DNA of 31,047 bases from a virus: positions 1 through 31,047 of IMG/VR virus record IMGVR_UViG_3300032278_000074, one strand, 5' to 3'. Made by a program: the position numbers and the translations under genes. Below, one piece after another: positions 57-31,047 of the stretch. Each line of letters begins with the position of its first letter. Within the stretch, counting starts at the first letter, position 1. The notes beneath the pieces were generated by a model that made no database searches, was not told the origin of the DNA, and saw nothing but the letters and a program-made list of their open reading frames with translations.

Positions 57-680
57 GTGGAAATTGAACTTGTAACCCTAGATAAGATTATTCCCTACGC
101 CCGAAACCCGCGTAAAAATGCGTTAGCTGTGGCCAATGTCGCTTCCAGCATTAAGGAATTTGGGTGGAGGCAACCCATAGTCGTCGATAGCGAAATGGTT
201 GTCGTCGCTGGGCATACCCGCCTTGAGGCGGCGCATTGTTTGGGTGTGGATAAAGTCCCGGTTCATGTTGCAAGAAATTTATCTGTTGAACAAATCAAGG
301 CTTACAGGCTGGCGGACAATAGAACGGGTCAGGACGCGGAGTGGGACCATGAACTTTTATCGCTGGAATTGACCGATTTAAGCGACGCTGATTTTAATTT
401 GGACTTCACTGGATTTACTGACAACGAATTAACGGATCTTTTAAACTACAAACCCAGCATTAATGAACTTTATCCAGACGGTGAAAAGGGCAGTTTACAA
501 GGGCTTTTGGCGGAAAGCCACATGGCGGTTCACACTTACCCGGAGAAAAATTTTATCGCGTTGGATATCTTCACTTGTGGTAATGAGGGCGAACCGTATA
601 GCGTGGTTGATTATTTCCGCGAAAAACTTGATGTTGTTTCTTATAGTATAAACATTATACCGCGTGGAAGAACGCTTTAA
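57..680 (+). CDS. ParB-domain protein fused to C-terminal half of AdoMet decarboxylase (SpeD-like)
   Basis: Two-domain protein of 207 aa with a GTG start; the frame is closed upstream at 24-26 and no earlier start exists. Residues 1-130 are a phage-type ParB/sulfiredoxin-like domain, with ARNPRKN at 15-21, the VVAGHTRLEAA signature at about 49-59 and RLADNRT at 84-90. Residues 138-207 match the alpha-chain half of bacterial S-adenosylmethionine decarboxylase. They include the E153-S154 self-cleavage pair in LLAESH, then H159 and C174 at +5 and +20 from the serine, the spacing of S63/H68/C83 in the Thermotoga maritima enzyme, plus HTYPE. A PxGxxG remnant lies at 140-145, but the N-terminal half of SpeD is absent. 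In related phages a ParB domain at this place is commonly fused to a DNA methyltransferase. Small terminase follows 16 nt downstream. Domain identities are secure; activity (pyruvoyl formation, decarboxylation or DNA binding) is unknown. Confidence 0.85.
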   Translation: MEIELVTLDKIIPYARNPRKNALAVANVASSIKEFGWRQPIVVDSEMVVVAGHTRLEAAHCLGVDKVPVHVARNLSVEQIKAYRLADNRTGQDAEWDHELLSLELTDLSDADFNLDFTGFTDNELTDLLNYKPSINELYPDGEKGSLQGLLAESHMAVHTYPEKNFIALDIFTCGNEGEPYSVVDYFREKLDVVSYSINIIPRGRTL

Positions 681-696
681 TTTTACAAGAAAAAAA

Positions 697-1287
697 ATGC
701 CTAACCCTTCGACTCATTCTTTAAACACCATTGCGAAGCTGCTGGATTTATCGCCCCGGCGAGTGCAACAACTTAGCAAGGAAGGTATTATCCCGCGCAG
801 TGAACGGGGACGTTATGAACTGGTTCCAAGCGTTCGCGGATACGTTAATTACCTTCGTGAACGCTCAATAGATAACGGGTCGAGTGTTGTGTCATTGGAT
901 GACGCCCGGAAAAGAAAAACCAACGCCGAAGCTGAAATGGCCGAAATTGAATTAGCCAAAGCCCGTGCCAGCGTGGTCAATATTAGGGACGTTCGAAAAC
1001 AATGGGACAAAGTTATGGGCGAATGCCGGACCCGTATATTGGCCTTACCTACAATACTCGCCCCCGTTGTCGCCCCTGAAACGGAATTGCAAATTGTCAA
1101 GGAGCTTATGGAAAACAGTGTCAACAAAGCCCTCGGAGAGCTTGCCCAAGGAATTTCGCACACACACAGACGCCCTTCAAAGTCTGCAAAATCTGGCAAG
1201 CCTAACGCTCGAAAAAATGGCACCCCCGCCGCGACTAACGATCAGCGAGTGGGCGGAAAGGGAACGGAAACTATCCCCGGAAGCTAG
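697..1287 (+). CDS. Terminase small subunit (Nu1-like)
   Basis: Predicted 196-aa small terminase that recognises the packaging site and delivers DNA to the large subunit. The N-terminal ~60 residues form a winged-HTH/MerR-like DNA-binding unit (AKLLDLSPRRVQQLSKEGII), as in lambda gpNu1. A charged helix with ARKRKTNAEAEMAEIELAKA follows, and then a helical assembly region. Length is close to lambda Nu1 (181 aa). ATG 697 is preferred over the upstream GTG at 664, which would overlap the ParB-SpeD gene; neither has a clear ribosome-binding site. The last ~48 residues are low-complexity, basic and overlap the terL frame by 146 nt, so they may be an unconstrained tail. Confidence 0.8.
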   Translation: MPNPSTHSLNTIAKLLDLSPRRVQQLSKEGIIPRSERGRYELVPSVRGYVNYLRERSIDNGSSVVSLDDARKRKTNAEAEMAEIELAKARASVVNIRDVRKQWDKVMGECRTRILALPTILAPVVAPETELQIVKELMENSVNKALGELAQGISHTHRRPSKSAKSGKPNARKNGTPAATNDQRVGGKGTETIPGS

Positions 1288-3004
1288 CGCCCTCCCCGGT
1301 GCTTGGGTAACCGTGCCTTACCAGAAAGGGATAATGGACACTATTAGCGACCCGGCTGTTCCACGGGTTGTCATTATGTCCAGTTCTCAGGTTGGGAAAA
1401 CGGAAATTTTATTGAACACGATTGGATTTTATGCGGTTTATGACCCGGCCCCAATCTTGTGTTTACAACCGACGCTGAGTATGGCTCAAGCGTTTTCCAA
1501 GGATCGTTTATCGCCGATGATCCGGGATACGAAAACATTATCAGAAAGGGTGCAGGACCCGCGGTCAAGGGATAGTGGGAACACGACGTTACACAAGGTT
1601 TACACGGGCGGTCACATTTCGATTGCTGGATCAAACAGTAGCGCAAGTCTCGCGTCGCGGCCTATCCGAATTTTATTGTGTGATGAAATTGACCGTTATC
1701 CGTTGTCGGCTGGAACGGAAGGCGACCCGATTTCCTTGGCCCAAAAACGAACGCAAAATTTTATCAACCGAAAAACGGTGATGGTCTCAACCCCTACAAT
1801 CCGGGGGGCGAGCCGTATTGAAAGCGCGTTTGAAAATTCGGATCAAAGATATTTTTACGTTCCTTGTGAAGATTGCGGGGAATTTCAGACCCTAGTTTGG
1901 CAAAACGTGCAGTGGCCTAAGTCTAGACCAAACGCCGCGGCGTATGTATGCGGCGCGTGTGGCACTGCGTGGGGCAACGCACAGCGGCTTCGGTCTCTGC
2001 GTGTGGGTGTGTGGCGGTCAACAAAGCCATACGATGGGATTGCGGGTTTTTTTTTAAATGGCCTTTATAGCCCTTGGATTTCATTAGGCGAGGCGGCAAA
2101 GGATTTTCTGGAAGCCAAGAAACTTCCCGAAACCTTGAGAGTGTTCATCAACACTTATTTAGCCGAAACCTACGAGGAGGAAGGCGAAGGGCTAGAATCT
2201 GTTTTCTTGGAAGACCGCCAAGAGGAAGAGGATTGGAGGGGGTTACTGCCTGAAAATGTCGTGCTTTTGACAATGGGTGTTGACTGCCAGAAAGACCGTT
2301 TTGAATATGAGATTGTGGGTTGGGGCCGCGAGGAAGAAAGCTGGTCTATTGATTATGGAATTATTTATGGCGACCCCAGTGGACCGAAAATTTGGGACGA
2401 ACTAGACGTCATAATAAAGACACAATATAAACATCCGATGGGCGTCGACTTACCTATTAGGTGTTGCTGTATAGACAGCGGCGGTCATTACACCCAATCC
2501 GTCTACAACTTTGTCAGGCCCCGCGAAGGCCGCAGGGTGTTCGCTATTAAGGGCGTTGGCGGGGAAGGCCGTGCGTTAATGGGGCGACCCTCGACATCGA
2601 ATATTGGAAAAATCCGATTGTTCCCGGTGGGCGTTGATACGGCGAAAGAGCTTTTTTATTCGCGTCTGAAAATAGCAGATTTCGGACCCGGTTACTGTCA
2701 TTTCCCGCAACGGGACACAGAATACTTTAAGCAATTAAGTTCGGAAAAAATTGTTACAAAATATTACAAAGGCCGACCCCGCCGCGAGTGGGTCAAGACA
2801 CGGACGCGGAATGAAGCCCTCGATGTCCGGGTCTATGCAACGGCGGCTTTCGCCTTATTGAATACAAATATCAATCATTTGGTTGACAGGTTTCATCAAC
2901 GCTTGAAAACGCGACCACCAGAACAAAACGAACCAGCCCAGCCGTTACGCCCCAGACCCCGGCGTCGAACTGGTCAAAGTTTTGTCAATTCATGGAATAA
3001 ATAA
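1142..3004 (+). CDS. Terminase large subunit (lambda gpA family)
   Basis: ATP-driven DNA packaging motor and nuclease, about 620 aa from a TTG start. It shows ISEWAERERKLSPE at the N terminus, as in lambda gpA, and a Walker A-like SSSQVGKT at about 80-87. A Walker B LLCDEID lies at about 178-184, four cysteines in CxxC pairs at about 242/245 and 270/273, and nuclease-domain acidic motifs (GVDCQKDRFEYE, CIDSGG, RNEALDVRVYA) in the C-terminal half. The usual first ATG would be 1217. TTG 1142 is chosen because GGAGAG lies just upstream and because the extra residues give the number seen before the conserved EWA motif in lambda gpA. The gene overlaps small terminase by 146 nt and abuts the next gene. 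Confidence 0.93.
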   Translation: MPKEFRTHTDALQSLQNLASLTLEKMAPPPRLTISEWAERERKLSPEASALPGAWVTVPYQKGIMDTISDPAVPRVVIMSSSQVGKTEILLNTIGFYAVYDPAPILCLQPTLSMAQAFSKDRLSPMIRDTKTLSERVQDPRSRDSGNTTLHKVYTGGHISIAGSNSSASLASRPIRILLCDEIDRYPLSAGTEGDPISLAQKRTQNFINRKTVMVSTPTIRGASRIESAFENSDQRYFYVPCEDCGEFQTLVWQNVQWPKSRPNAAAYVCGACGTAWGNAQRLRSLRVGVWRSTKPYDGIAGFFLNGLYSPWISLGEAAKDFLEAKKLPETLRVFINTYLAETYEEEGEGLESVFLEDRQEEEDWRGLLPENVVLLTMGVDCQKDRFEYEIVGWGREEESWSIDYGIIYGDPSGPKIWDELDVIIKTQYKHPMGVDLPIRCCCIDSGGHYTQSVYNFVRPREGRRVFAIKGVGGEGRALMGRPSTSNIGKIRLFPVGVDTAKELFYSRLKIADFGPGYCHFPQRDTEYFKQLSSEKIVTKYYKGRPRREWVKTRTRNEALDVRVYATAAFALLNTNINHLVDRFHQRLKTRPPEQNEPAQPLRPRPRRRTGQSFVNSWNK

Positions 3005-3589
3005 ATGGCCAATTTATTTGATACTGATAACGCCACGACCACAGAACCCGCCGAAATAATATCCGGGGATAGGCTGATATGGAAACGGACGGACTTGAAC
3101 ACAGACTATTCAAATAGCACTCATTCTTTGAAATACTCGGCGCGGCTAGAAGGCACGGGAAGTACGGAAATAGAAATAGCGGCCAGCGCAAGCAGTGATG
3201 ATTATCTCGTGGAAATTGCATCTGCGACAACGGCGAATTACACAGCGGGGGTTTATGTGTGGCAAGCGTACATCACCCGCACGAGCGATTCACAAAGACT
3301 GACGATTGACACGGGAACATGGGAGGTTATTGCCAACCGGGACGCTAATACAGCCGACCCGCGAAGTCACGCGAAACTGATGCTTGATAAAATAGAAAGT
3401 ATTCTTGAAGGCCGCGCCGGGTCGGACGTTGGAAGCTATAGCATTAACGGACGGTCATTGACCAAGCTATCAATAAGCGATCTTTTGGTTTGGCGGGATA
3501 GGTACAAGATTGAATTTTTGAGGGCGGTTCGTAAGGAACGGGCTAATAACGGGGTCGGCACTGGTGGTCAGGTGAAGGTGAGGTTTTAA
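3005..3589 (+). CDS. gpW-like head-tail connector with N-terminal beta domain
   Basis: Protein of 194 aa lying between large terminase and portal, where lambda encodes gpW. The C-terminal ~75 residues (SHAKLMLDKIESILEGR, then YSINGRSLTKLSISDLLVWRDRY and a basic tail) look like a gpW-type helix-turn-helix connector. The first ~110 residues are Ser/Thr-rich and beta-strand-like, with an EIEIAASASSDDYLVEIASA-type pattern, suggesting a small Ig-like or beta-sandwich module. It begins one base after the terminase stop. The connector role rests mainly on gene order and the C-terminal pattern; the N-terminal module is not recognised. Confidence 0.6.
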   Translation: MANLFDTDNATTTEPAEIISGDRLIWKRTDLNTDYSNSTHSLKYSARLEGTGSTEIEIAASASSDDYLVEIASATTANYTAGVYVWQAYITRTSDSQRLTIDTGTWEVIANRDANTADPRSHAKLMLDKIESILEGRAGSDVGSYSINGRSLTKLSISDLLVWRDRYKIEFLRAVRKERANNGVGTGGQVKVRF

Positions 3590-3591
3590 TC

Positions 3592-5055
3592 ATGCGCTGG
3601 TTTCAAAGAAAATCAAAAAAGAAATCCCGGCGGTCCTATGCAGGGATTAATACTGGCCGTTTGTTTGCGGACTTTGCGACAAGTACAACATCCGCTGACA
3701 GCGAATTAAAACCCGCTTTAAAAATACTCAGGAACCGTTGCCGGGAATTGGCGCGGAATGATGAATACGTTAAACGTTATTTACAACTTTTAAAAACAAA
3801 TGTTGTCGGCCCCGCCGGGGTGAACTTGCAAGCCAAGGCGCGGAACCCCGATGGCAAACTGGATTCGCCCGGTAATAAATTAATTGAAGCGGCTTGGTCG
3901 CAATGGGGCAAGCGTGGCAACTGCACAGCCGATGGGCGTTTAAGTTTTGTTGATTGTCAGCGCATGGTTGTCGAATCAATCGCCCGTGACGGCGAAGCCT
4001 TGGTGCGTTTGGTTCAGGGGGCGGATAATGGTGATAGGTTTGCGCTGGAATTTATTGAAGCGGATGTTCTGGACGAGGAATTAAATATTACATTGGACAA
4101 CGGAAATCAGGTTCGTATGGGTGTCGAAATTAATGGTTTTGGTCGCCCCCAAAGTTATTACTTATTGACTGAACATCCGGGCGACGGACAGTTTATAAAT
4201 GGTCACGGGCGCAAACATAAGCGCGTGGAAGCGGCTAGTTTACTTCATATTTATAGCCCGGAACGGCCACACCAAACACGGGGTGTCCCCCCACTTGCCG
4301 CCGCGATTAACCCGCTGAAAATGTTACATGGATACAGAGAAGCAGAGCTTGTCGCCAGCCGGGTCGGGGCGAGTGCAATGGGGATGATTACAACCCCGGA
4401 CGGGGACGGTTTCAGCGGGGATGAATACGAGGACAGCTATACACCATTGACAAACGCGGAGCCGGGTACGTTTCACAATTTGCCAGCCGGGGCTGACATT
4501 AAGATGTTCGACCCCCAGCATCCGACAACCGCCTTCGGGGTTTTTCATAAAAGCGTTTTACGCGGCGTGGCGAGCAGTTTAGGTATTTCGTACGCCGCTT
4601 TAGCTAGTGACTTGGAAAGCGTGAATTATAGTTCGATCCGTCAAGGTGCTTTGGATGAGCGTGACAATTATCGGACACAACAAACCTTTTTGATTGAACA
4701 TTTTCTGGAGCCAGTTTTTAGGGCGTGGCTGGGATCGGCTATGTCGTTCGGGGCGTTAAATATACCCATTACCCGTTATGATAAATTTGCGGACAGCGTG
4801 ATTTACAGGCCGCGAGGATTTAGCTGGATTGACCCCTTGAAAGAAATCCAAGCGAACGCCTTGGGAATTCAAAACGGGTTGTTGAGTATGCAGGACGTCG
4901 CGTCGAATTACGGGCGCGAAATCGAGGAAGTGTTCGAACAAATTGAACGCGAAAAAGAATTGGCGGAAAGCCATAACATATCGCTGGCTTTCCAGCCTTT
5001 TGGAATTAAAGCTCCAGCGCAACCTATCGTCGACAATGAGGAACCCAATGAGTGA
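3592..5055 (+). CDS. Portal protein (lambda gpB family)
   Basis: Dodecameric portal at the capsid vertex through which DNA enters and to which the tail connects; 487 aa. It has the typical lambda-portal start, with a basic N terminus followed by helices RCRELARNDEYVKRYLQLLKTNVVG and PAGVNLQAKA. A central SIARDGEALVRL stretch, RPHQTRGVPPLAAAI and SYAALASDLESVNYSSIRQG, all characteristic of Phage_portal_2 members, follow. The ATG has GAGG upstream. The stop overlaps the start of the protease-capsid gene (ATGAGTGA), implying translational coupling. Confidence 0.93.
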   Translation: MRWFQRKSKKKSRRSYAGINTGRLFADFATSTTSADSELKPALKILRNRCRELARNDEYVKRYLQLLKTNVVGPAGVNLQAKARNPDGKLDSPGNKLIEAAWSQWGKRGNCTADGRLSFVDCQRMVVESIARDGEALVRLVQGADNGDRFALEFIEADVLDEELNITLDNGNQVRMGVEINGFGRPQSYYLLTEHPGDGQFINGHGRKHKRVEAASLLHIYSPERPHQTRGVPPLAAAINPLKMLHGYREAELVASRVGASAMGMITTPDGDGFSGDEYEDSYTPLTNAEPGTFHNLPAGADIKMFDPQHPTTAFGVFHKSVLRGVASSLGISYAALASDLESVNYSSIRQGALDERDNYRTQQTFLIEHFLEPVFRAWLGSAMSFGALNIPITRYDKFADSVIYRPRGFSWIDPLKEIQANALGIQNGLLSMQDVASNYGREIEEVFEQIEREKELAESHNISLAFQPFGIKAPAQPIVDNEEPNE

Positions 5056-6967
5056 AGAACACATTGAGACACCCAAGGAGGAGTCAAGCCCTGATACGCA
5101 TAGGGACATTGCTTCTGAAAACAAAGATTCAATTATTAAAGACCGGGATATTGATTTTGAAATTCAGCATCGGTCTATTGAGGTAGAACCCGATTTTATT
5201 AAGGAAGAGGAGCGGCGGGTTGATATTTCAGTTTCATCCGAAGCCCCGGTCGAACGCTCTTTCGGGACGGAAATTTTATCACATAGCGAGGACAGTATTG
5301 ATCTCAGTTTTTTGGGATCAGGTAATGCCCCGTTATTGCTGGATCACGATATGCGCCAGCAAATAGGAATCGTTGAAAAGGTCAACATCGACGACGGTGA
5401 GCGTCGTTTACGCGCAACTGTGCGTTTTGGAAAAAACCCACAAGCGGATGAAGCCTTTAAAGACGTGGCAGACGGGATTCGAAAAAATATTAGTGTCGGA
5501 TACCGAATTGACGAGTTAAACCAAAGTGAGCGCGAAAATGAGACCGTTTTTGTTGCGGATCGGTGGACCCCTTTAGAGGTGTCTTTGGTTGCCATAGGCG
5601 CGGACCAGACAGTCGGCGTCGGACGCTCGGCAGAAATTATTCAACAACAACCCACTGTTCCACAGGAGGAAAACACTATGGAACCACAAGTCGAAATTAA
5701 CGTCGATGAAGCTCGCGCAGAAGCGGCTCGGGACGCTACACAAAACTATGCCAAGCAAGTCAGGGAAATTCTGGCTCTTGGCGCAAAACATAACCGCCGG
5801 GATTTGGCAGAGGAAAGCATTTCTAAAAATCTTTCCATTGAACAATTCCGTGGCGTTTTGTTGCAAGAAATTGGCGATGCAAAACCTTTGGAAGTTGCAG
5901 AACCTGACCTCACCCCGCGTGAGCAAAAAAGCTATTCTTTAATGAAAGCAATTCGCGCCGCGGCTAGCAATGATTGGCGCGAAGCTGGTTTCGAAAGAGA
6001 AGTGTCTGACGAAATTGGCCGGGTTTCTGGACGGACACCCAAGGGCTTTTTCGTACCTTCGCACGCATGGTCACAACGTGATTTGATTGTGGGTGCCGAC
6101 GGAGATGGCGGACACTTGAAAGGCGTGGATCATCTGGGCGGTGAATTTATTGAAGCCTTGAGGTCCCGGCTCGTTGTTGGGTCAATGGGGGCGAGAATTA
6201 TGTCAGGCCTTCAGGGGGATGTTTCCATTCCGAAAATGACAGCCGCGGCAAGTGCGGCTTTTGTTGCAGAAAATAATGCTGTTTCTGAACAAAATCAGAC
6301 CTTCGGTGAATTGGCCCTTGCCCCTAAAACGCTCGGGGTGATGACAGATATATCTAGGAAACTCCTCCTGCAAAGTGACCCTTCGGCGGAAGCAATTGTT
6401 CGTAATGATCTTTTAAATGCCGTCGCAGCCAAGATAGAAGACGTGGCAATCGAAGGTTCAGGATCGAACGAACCCACTGGAATAACGAAAACGAGCGGTA
6501 TTGGATCGGTGGCCATCGGCACGAATGGCGGTCCACCCACTTTCGCTTCTGTGGTCAATTTGGTGAAAGAAGTTGAGCAGGATAATGCCGCAATTTCCGA
6601 CAGCATGGGTTATTTAACCAACTCCAAGGTGAAGGCTAAACTTTCATCCACGGCGAAGGTTAGTTCATCGGACAGCGTTATGATTTTGGATGCGCCTTGG
6701 ACCGAACTTTATGGTTATAAATTTGGTGTGACGAACCATGTTCCTAGTGACCTTACGAAGGGAAGCACTTCTGGAACTTGCTCGGCAATAATCTTCGGTG
6801 ATTTCTCAAACATTATATTGGCTTTCTGGTCAAGCCCTGACATTCTTATTGACCCTTATACCAATTCTTCAAAGGGCGGCACACGCGTCGTTGTTTTTCA
6901 GGATTGCGATGTTGGAGTCAGACACGCACAGGCGTTCGCGGCTTGCTTGGATTACACAACTACATAA
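5048..6967 (+). CDS. Prohead protease-major capsid protein fusion (HK97 fold)
   Basis: One open frame of 639 aa joins a maturation protease to the major capsid protein. Residues ~60-195 form the HK97 prohead-protease domain: ISVSSEAPVERSFG, LLLDHD with catalytic H100, NISVGYRI with catalytic S149, and WTPLEVSLVAIGAD. Residues ~211-320 are a helical, charged scaffold (delta-like) segment. From ~330 the HK97 capsid fold follows, with a GGEFIEALRSRLVVGSMGAR-type N-arm region, LAPKTLGVMTDISRKLL and a C-terminal GVRHAQAFA. ATG 5048 is chosen over 4943 and 5036 because GAGGAA precedes it; it overlaps the portal stop. An internal in-frame start at 5678 is listed separately. Confidence 0.92.
   Translation: MSEEHIETPKEESSPDTHRDIASENKDSIIKDRDIDFEIQHRSIEVEPDFIKEEERRVDISVSSEAPVERSFGTEILSHSEDSIDLSFLGSGNAPLLLDHDMRQQIGIVEKVNIDDGERRLRATVRFGKNPQADEAFKDVADGIRKNISVGYRIDELNQSERENETVFVADRWTPLEVSLVAIGADQTVGVGRSAEIIQQQPTVPQEENTMEPQVEINVDEARAEAARDATQNYAKQVREILALGAKHNRRDLAEESISKNLSIEQFRGVLLQEIGDAKPLEVAEPDLTPREQKSYSLMKAIRAAASNDWREAGFEREVSDEIGRVSGRTPKGFFVPSHAWSQRDLIVGADGDGGHLKGVDHLGGEFIEALRSRLVVGSMGARIMSGLQGDVSIPKMTAAASAAFVAENNAVSEQNQTFGELALAPKTLGVMTDISRKLLLQSDPSAEAIVRNDLLNAVAAKIEDVAIEGSGSNEPTGITKTSGIGSVAIGTNGGPPTFASVVNLVKEVEQDNAAISDSMGYLTNSKVKAKLSSTAKVSSSDSVMILDAPWTELYGYKFGVTNHVPSDLTKGSTSGTCSAIIFGDFSNIILAFWSSPDILIDPYTNSSKGGTRVVVFQDCDVGVRHAQAFAACLDYTTT
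5678..6967 (+). CDS. Major capsid protein from internal start (scaffold + capsid)
   Basis: In-frame internal translation start within the protease-capsid fusion. A perfect Shine-Dalgarno AGGAGGA (5664-5670) sits 7 nt before ATG 5678 (residue 211 of the fusion), exactly at the domain border. The resulting 429-aa protein starts with a helical, acidic/basic delta-like segment and continues as the complete HK97-fold capsid subunit. Hundreds of capsid subunits but few proteases are needed per head, so a strong internal start would set the ratio, much as lambda nests Nu3 within C. The ribosome-binding site and frame are visible; the use of both starts is inferred. Confidence 0.75.
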   Translation: MEPQVEINVDEARAEAARDATQNYAKQVREILALGAKHNRRDLAEESISKNLSIEQFRGVLLQEIGDAKPLEVAEPDLTPREQKSYSLMKAIRAAASNDWREAGFEREVSDEIGRVSGRTPKGFFVPSHAWSQRDLIVGADGDGGHLKGVDHLGGEFIEALRSRLVVGSMGARIMSGLQGDVSIPKMTAAASAAFVAENNAVSEQNQTFGELALAPKTLGVMTDISRKLLLQSDPSAEAIVRNDLLNAVAAKIEDVAIEGSGSNEPTGITKTSGIGSVAIGTNGGPPTFASVVNLVKEVEQDNAAISDSMGYLTNSKVKAKLSSTAKVSSSDSVMILDAPWTELYGYKFGVTNHVPSDLTKGSTSGTCSAIIFGDFSNIILAFWSSPDILIDPYTNSSKGGTRVVVFQDCDVGVRHAQAFAACLDYTTT

Positions 6968-30896: not shown

Positions 30897-31042
30897 CAGA
30901 ACCCGATGTATTGCCCGTGTATCACCTATCTTGGGGTGGCGATGTGTGGGTAATGCCTCACCTATTAGTTCGCACTGTGTCGGCGGATATGGCGGTTTTC
31001 AGGGCAAAAGGTACTTTCCAGCCCTTCAAGCCTTGCGGGTAA
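30893..31042 (+). CDS. 49-aa small protein reaching the terminal repeat
   Basis: TTG start overlaps the previous stop (TTGA). Contains VLPVYHLSWGGDVWVMPHLL and a C terminus KGTFQPFKPCG. Its TAA lies inside the 10-bp terminal repeat. If the ends are joined, an 11-codon ATG reading frame and then the ParB-SpeD gene follow. Unknown. Confidence 0.5.
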   Translation: MTEPDVLPVYHLSWGGDVWVMPHLLVRTVSADMAVFRAKGTFQPFKPCG

Positions 31043-31047
31043 TGCGG
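31038..31047. repeat. 10-bp direct terminal repeat (right copy)
   Basis: Exact copy of the first ten bases of the window. Confidence 0.6.

Follow-up and report, generated by a model that had tools for sequence, protein, structure and literature searches.

A ParB–SpeD fusion gene at a phage genome end is probably the scar of a deletion in a ParB-methyltransferase/SpeD gene pair

What kind of protein begins as a phage ParB domain and ends as the catalytic half of an AdoMet decarboxylase (AdoMetDC, SpeD)? Such a protein is encoded at positions 57–680 (plus strand) of IMG/VR virus record IMGVR_UViG_3300032278_000074, whose 31,047 nt were analyzed in full and are referred to here as the window. 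The frame is real as sequence: it is open over 207 codons and starts with GTG, a plausible start given that the homologous ParB frame of two related contigs (L023 and L024) begins at a near-equal distance from a conserved genome end. Three readings of this ORF were weighed, of which the scar of a deletion is the most likely, a join made during assembly less so and a working new enzyme the least.

Scanning the two segments separately with Pfam and PHROG profiles, a check proposed in the initial annotation, matched ParB in front and SpeD behind, and bore out its description of a frame that joins a ParB domain to a SpeD C-terminal half without the N-terminal half. The ParB N-terminal domain comprises residues 1–135 (57–461, plus strand) and would be the front of an ancestral ParB-methyltransferase (ParB-MTase). 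Scanned alone, residues 2–88 matched Pfam ParB_N at 1.5e-07; the score for this family (PF02195) was 31.8 bits, compared with a curated cut-off of 26.3, and the ParB GxxR motif is present as GHTR in ...VVVAGHTRLEAA. PHROG 620 matched residues 1–130 at 3e-50, and PHROG 498, a family of phage DNA methyltransferases, matched the ParB part (the first 135 residues) at 3.9e-44. The domain is 55–64% identical to the ParB-MTase and ParB proteins of the related sequences L001–L015, and ∼49% identical to that of the viral sequence L019.

The SpeD C-terminal half (501–680, plus strand) was recognized by Pfam AdoMet_dc (PF02675), which matched the last 72 residues at 1.6e-16 while covering just positions 51–107 of its 107. 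All catalytic residues expected in this part are in place, namely the Glu-Ser site E153-S154 (513–515 and 516–518), the His at +5 (H159, 531–533) and the Cys at +20 (C174, 576–578), each of them invariant among 58 distinct aligned SpeDs, so that the catalytic set at family spacing claimed earlier stood up to alignment. This half is 56% identical to the full-length SpeD of L019 and likewise to the SpeD sequence of L018, and the nearest solved structures to the C-terminal part were those of bacterial and T. maritima AdoMetDCs, from about residue 137–142 onward. The border between the domains, initially placed at residue 136, had to be moved to about residue 148–149, since residues 136–147 hold the linker that connects ParB to the MTase in relatives (YPDGEKGSL).

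Equally telling is what the window lacks. PF02675 describes a complete alpha/beta domain made of N- and C-terminal halves, the first of which is absent from the ORF; other viral SpeDs have ∼43–66 residues ahead of the serine, and N-half sequence is present in every other listed SpeD that has the ESH..HT.PE motif. A search of the window for a second SpeD returned none beyond this single match. Nor did a search across the whole window for a methyltransferase domain (motif I plus SCPPY) yield any match, so the ORF does not qualify as a ParB-MTase.

The position of the ORF is informative as well. The first 10 nt of the window (GGTAATGCGG, 1–10) are repeated exactly and in direct orientation as its last 10 nt (31038–31047), probably representing a lambda-type cosN cohesive end. 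The contigs L012, L021, L023, L024 and L025 begin at a conserved GGTAACGCGCGA...TTTT...ACAG...TTTCGTTTC, ahead of ParB or of the small terminase gene (terS). Taken together, the terminal repeat, the related contig starts and the GpA-type terminase suggest a lambda-type cos end, based on the presumed likeness of the window ends to lambda cos; with a cos end at the terminus, ORF 57–680 would be the first gene of the genome. It is followed by the small terminase subunit (697–1287, plus strand; HTH, DUF1441-type position) and by a large terminase of the lambda GpA type with ATPase and nuclease parts (1241–3004, plus strand; Pfam GpA_ATPase 2e-84, GpA_nuclease 8.7e-94). The small subunit had no Pfam match of its own; its homologues precede terL in many of L001–L025, and the gene at the terS position of phage ZRG1 is annotated as DUF1441. 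Farther downstream, positions 4943–6967 form a single long frame whose translation looks like a fusion of prohead protease and major capsid protein.

Among relatives, the cos–terS slot varies in content, holding either of two kinds of ParB-MTase, a short-tailed ParB (L006, L012) or nothing (L021). The ParB-only proteins suggest that loss of the MTase need not be fatal. In L023 and L024, which are identical in sequence and come from two metagenomes, nt 1–180 contain a ParB stub with fewer than 40 matching residues before terS, which looks from its sequence like the outcome of a separate, independent deletion at this place.

In phages, ParB domains of the window's kind are often followed by an MTase, and in L019, L107/L187, L108/L199, ZRG1 and P2559S the ParB-MTase is directly followed by a full-length SpeD, usually with overlapping genes. 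In L019, for example, a 471-codon ParB-MTase (4397–5830) shares an ATGA overlap with the gene of a complete, 120-aa SpeD, the two lying in different frames. Pseudomonas phage ZRG1 (OQ504961) has the order ParB-MTase, full SpeD, small terminase (DUF1441) and GpA large terminase. In Croceibacter phage P2559S (JQ867099), the sole SpeD of the genome overlaps an MTase with Asp in motif I (see below). The pair occurs in phages with differing terminase types, and its genes abut or overlap across a large clade. Measured against such a module, consisting of a ParB-MTase with an FAGD motif and then a full-length SpeD, the window holds the outer two parts only. Many module SpeDs (e.g. L218, L225, L230 and L253) stop shortly past the catalytic Cys at ∼85–100 aa, which is below the usual class 1b size. 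The SpeD behind the ParB-MTase of L228 (IMG/VR 3300010935_000116) is missing ∼20 residues relative to P2559S, including Glu-Ser and His; the gap sits between two QGYT repeats and may be an internal in-frame deletion in a second SpeD or an assembly collapse.

A witness that is independent of SpeD is provided by the linker. Behind its ParB domain, the window retains a remnant of the ParB-to-MTase linker (...NELYPDGEKGSLQ, 462–500, plus strand) that matches the pattern Y.DG.KGS[ML] found before the MTase of SpeD-linked proteins. It reads YPDGEKGSLQ and then runs straight into GLLAESH, and the linkers of SpeD-linked ParB-MTases read YDEGEKGSM (L019), YSDGQKGSM (L188), YTDGEAGSL (L201) and YADGVQGSL (L214). 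Outside the SpeD-linked clade, this form was absent from MTases without SpeD wherever the linker could be read. Of the viral SpeDs, those of L018/L019 and L107 lie nearest to the window half, and they are themselves members of the module or identical sequence at a contig end. The ORF combines the linker of SpeD-linked ParB-MTases with a SpeD closest to theirs, as expected of a remnant of the module. Because the linker matches, an in-frame deletion best explains the ORF, and we consider it highly probable, judging from sequence comparison, that 57–680 is the in-frame scar of a ∼1.0-kb deletion in a two-gene module of a ParB-MTase-like enzyme and SpeD.

According to this explanation, the ancestral module would have been flanked by the cos end on one side and the terminase genes on the other. 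One deletion, reaching from just within the MTase to the Trp codon that precedes LLAESH of SpeD, could account for the entire sequence: it would have taken the MTase domain together with the first ∼57–58 SpeD residues, leaving the ParB domain with its linker attached to SpeD at ...LLAESH. The predicted junction is CAA GGG CTT (Q148-G149-L150, 498–506, plus strand), in place of the relatives' intervening stretch; between the matching points, relatives have ∼1.02–1.03 kb (L019 4967–6000, L107 1980–3000), made up of the MTase domain and SpeD residues 1–∼58. As the two parents overlap without sharing a reading frame, the number of nucleotides lost would not be divisible by three, and one in three deletions would leave the fusion in frame. 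No close relative of the window's phage with an intact module was found, which is why deletion and breakpoint are inferred from L019-type relatives (SpeD ∼56% and ParB ∼49% identical).

Since full-length speD already adjoins the ParB-MTase in relatives, the SpeD half did not arrive as a replacement. The initial annotation had seen in it a SAM-related domain that takes the place of the MTase in a working protein, and this proposal found no support; the alternative that it also offered, an inactive fusion created by deletion, is the one that the relatives' gene order and the linker favor. Counting against a scar are the fully open fused frame and the intact catalytic residues, which a non-functional relic keeps only if it is young. 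Counting in its favor is the other deletion that the L023/L024 contigs show at this position. The scar would most likely be recent.

Alternatively, the join could be an artefact of assembly, or a chimera, in which reads from a phage with the intact ParB-MTase-SpeD arrangement, or from a mixed population, were connected across the missing 1 kb. The record does belong to a collection of uncultured viruses, and a single copy of the fusion is known. We nevertheless consider an artefact unlikely: the clean 10-nt terminal repeat resembles the conserved genome-end sequence, which indicates that the genome was assembled coherently; the join is in frame despite the differing frames of the parents, for which a random join has a chance of one in three; and what appear to be natural deletions affect the same slot in the two other metagenomes represented by L023 and L024.

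A second ParB-SpeD fusion was not found in IMG/VR, GenBank phages or a bacterial genome scan at the sensitivity used, and to that extent the earlier remark that no protein of this architecture has been described holds. The bacterial scan returned ordinary bacterial SpeDs only, and a near-identity DNA search of phages gave no match. One candidate, L016, matched query residues 1–205 and was rejected, as another domain occupies its C-terminal part. At 2675–4949 this sequence encodes ParB with a different C-terminal domain and a similar protein directly downstream, which by reading may be glycosyltransferase-like.

Could the fusion still work? From −5 to −12 ahead of the serine, the residues have departed from the family pattern: the W/F/Y usually found at −5 is Gly, and the L/V at −6 is Gln. 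Structure models were made of the window SpeD half alone and of the L019 ParB-MTase. When the half was modeled by itself, as likewise proposed at the outset, two strands and a helix were predicted with good confidence, and a low-confidence helix took the place of the strand expected before Glu-Ser; the best structural match was the T. maritima AdoMetDC alpha chain in its processed form. Lacking its N-half as well as the strand on which the Glu-Ser bond is displayed, the fusion should not decarboxylate SAM, and decarboxylase activity is unlikely. Most likely, the product keeps the fold of a ParB-domain protein and carries the SpeD tail as a passenger. That the fusion is instead a maintained working protein, whose ParB part targets DNA while the SpeD half cleaves itself, binds SAM or pairs with a second subunit, seems very improbable, for although the frame is open across both parts, E153, S154, H159 and C174 are all kept and the T. 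maritima alpha chain is also a separate chain once processed, no other fusion turned up in phage records or viral contigs at the sensitivity used, the segment from −5 to −12 departs from the family and there is no second SpeD to provide the N-half.

The fusion itself is thus probably a broken leftover, and its value lies in pointing to the conserved ParB-MTase/SpeD pair. In the SpeD-linked phage enzymes, an Asp follows the glycine of motif I, as it does in spermidine synthase (motifs compared by eye). We compared 102 distinct MTase-domain relatives, sampled around a SpeD-linked query, and scored the presence of SpeD by HMM. Of the 79 scorable ParB-MTases whose motif I has Asp (FAGD[TS]VFG and near variants), 75 are directly followed by SpeD and four are not; of the 22 that lack the Asp, none is. 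The median offset of the SpeD stop-to-stop frame relative to the MTase stop was −22 nt. For the association between Asp and SpeD, the Fisher value uncorrected for relatedness is 1.6e-18. When the motif columns were left out of the tree, four changes were needed for Asp and eight for SpeD; the three to four independent contrasts all point in one direction and remain below significance in a sign test, the link coming mostly from one clade.

Where SpeD was lost, the Asp tends to have been lost too. The nested lineages L202, L234 and L283 have lost both, each with a motif I that is one residue shorter, and L308, a close relative of L202, has both. GenBank phages outside the Asp clade (Listeria B054, Enterococcus phiFL3A, Mycobacterium AlanGrant, HCTV-2, Funu2 and Mae-JY30) have Gly and no adjoining SpeD. 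Contig L239 carries both MTase types, one with FAGG and no SpeD and one with FAGD and SpeD (491–1393 and 2997–4355). In AlanGrant (L270, 1–2275), a ParB-MTase with FAGGPVRG overlaps the next gene, which is annotated as nucleoside deaminase / tryptophan synthase beta superfamily and is possibly another enzyme paired with a ParB-MTase.

What might the intact module do? In motif I of spermidine synthase (V-I-G-G-G-D-G-G-V), the Asp binds decarboxylated SAM (dcSAM) at its amino group through a salt bridge and presumably repels the SAM carboxylate; changing this Asp alone gave a methyltransferase (PMC3725402). The phage enzymes combine the two sequence features looked for in an aminopropyltransferase, Gly-Asp in motif I (FAGD[TS]VFG) and a source of dcSAM in the adjacent SpeD. 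By analogy, we infer that SpeD supplies dcSAM and that the "methyltransferase" is a DNA aminopropyltransferase: SpeD would make dcSAM for the neighboring enzyme, and the ParB-MTase-like protein, with its Gly-Asp of the spermidine synthase type, would move the aminopropyl group from dcSAM onto DNA bases. A Foldseek search with the L019 ParB-MTase model returned generic class I methyltransferases, a result that does not discriminate for the donor. No description of a ParB/SpeD pair, of aminopropyl DNA or of DNA modification from dcSAM was found in the open-access literature, and the intact pair, present in dozens of other phages, is apparently a conserved, undescribed system. The chances seem evenly balanced that the window is the remnant of a widespread phage hypermodification system of this kind, in which a Gly-to-Asp ParB-MTase homologue and dcSAM from a dedicated SpeD would place aminopropyl groups on DNA bases, probably as a means of anti-restriction.

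Spermidine synthesis with host enzymes is a serious rival to this dcSAM/aminopropyl reading. SpeD would then work together with the host synthase, its adjacency to the ParB-MTase would be incidental and the MTase would use ordinary SAM. Indeed, the SpeD of P2559S is a functional AdoMetDC that restores spermidine in E. coli lacking speD, acting with host SpeE, and polyamines aid phage growth (PMC9992855). We still regard this explanation as somewhat unlikely, since the pair overlaps or abuts across a large clade with several terminase types, and SpeD tracks a single residue in the SAM loop of the MTase, with joint loss on three occasions. Furthermore, a spermidine synthase was detected in 0 of 16 SpeD-linked phage records, which also leaves the polyamine or packaging role raised by the initial annotation without specific support. 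A further possibility, that SpeD blocks host methyltransferases by depleting SAM or by producing an analogue that competes with it, while the Asp adapts the ParB-MTase to high dcSAM without using it, would account for the co-occurrence and the altered SAM loop too but is distinctly unlikely, because an Asp of the spermidine synthase type attracts dcSAM and disfavors SAM, the opposite of what avoiding dcSAM requires.

If aminopropyl transfer to DNA is indeed the function of the module, it would add a new chemistry to DNA modification, with dcSAM as the source of a base mark that carries positive charge, and part of the phage speD genes would gain a role beyond spermidine synthesis. P2559S and ZRG1 are isolated phages in which the idea is directly testable.

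Compared with known systems, the window ORF shares the C-terminal half and the spacing of Glu-Ser, His and Cys with class 1b AdoMetDC (SpeD/SpeH, PF02675; T. maritima 1tlu/3iwc; phage members in PMC9992855), but it lacks the N-terminal half, is fused to ParB and is unlikely to be active. Like the SpeD1SpeD2 fusions (PMC10407285), it has a SpeD domain inside a larger polypeptide, whereas those proteins join two SpeD homologues and have no ParB. With the phage ParB-MTase fusions (PHROG 498; Bce_0392 type, cited in PMC5512222), it has in common the ParB domain, the linker and the place before the terminase, the MTase domain having been deleted in the window according to the favored reading. The SpeD-linked ParB-MTases differ from other such fusions in that Asp replaces Gly in motif I. 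For these module enzymes, spermidine synthase (PF01564) is a mechanistic analogue, with Gly-Asp in motif I and an Asp that binds the amino group of dcSAM (PMC3725402); its substrate is putrescine, not DNA, and we do not claim a shared family. Finally, the order ParB, SpeD, terS and GpA-type terL is identical in ZRG1 and the window, and the same protein families occur in ZRG1 and P2559S; in these two phages, ParB-MTase and SpeD are separate, intact genes, annotated merely as unrelated single genes, whereas the window carries one truncated fusion.
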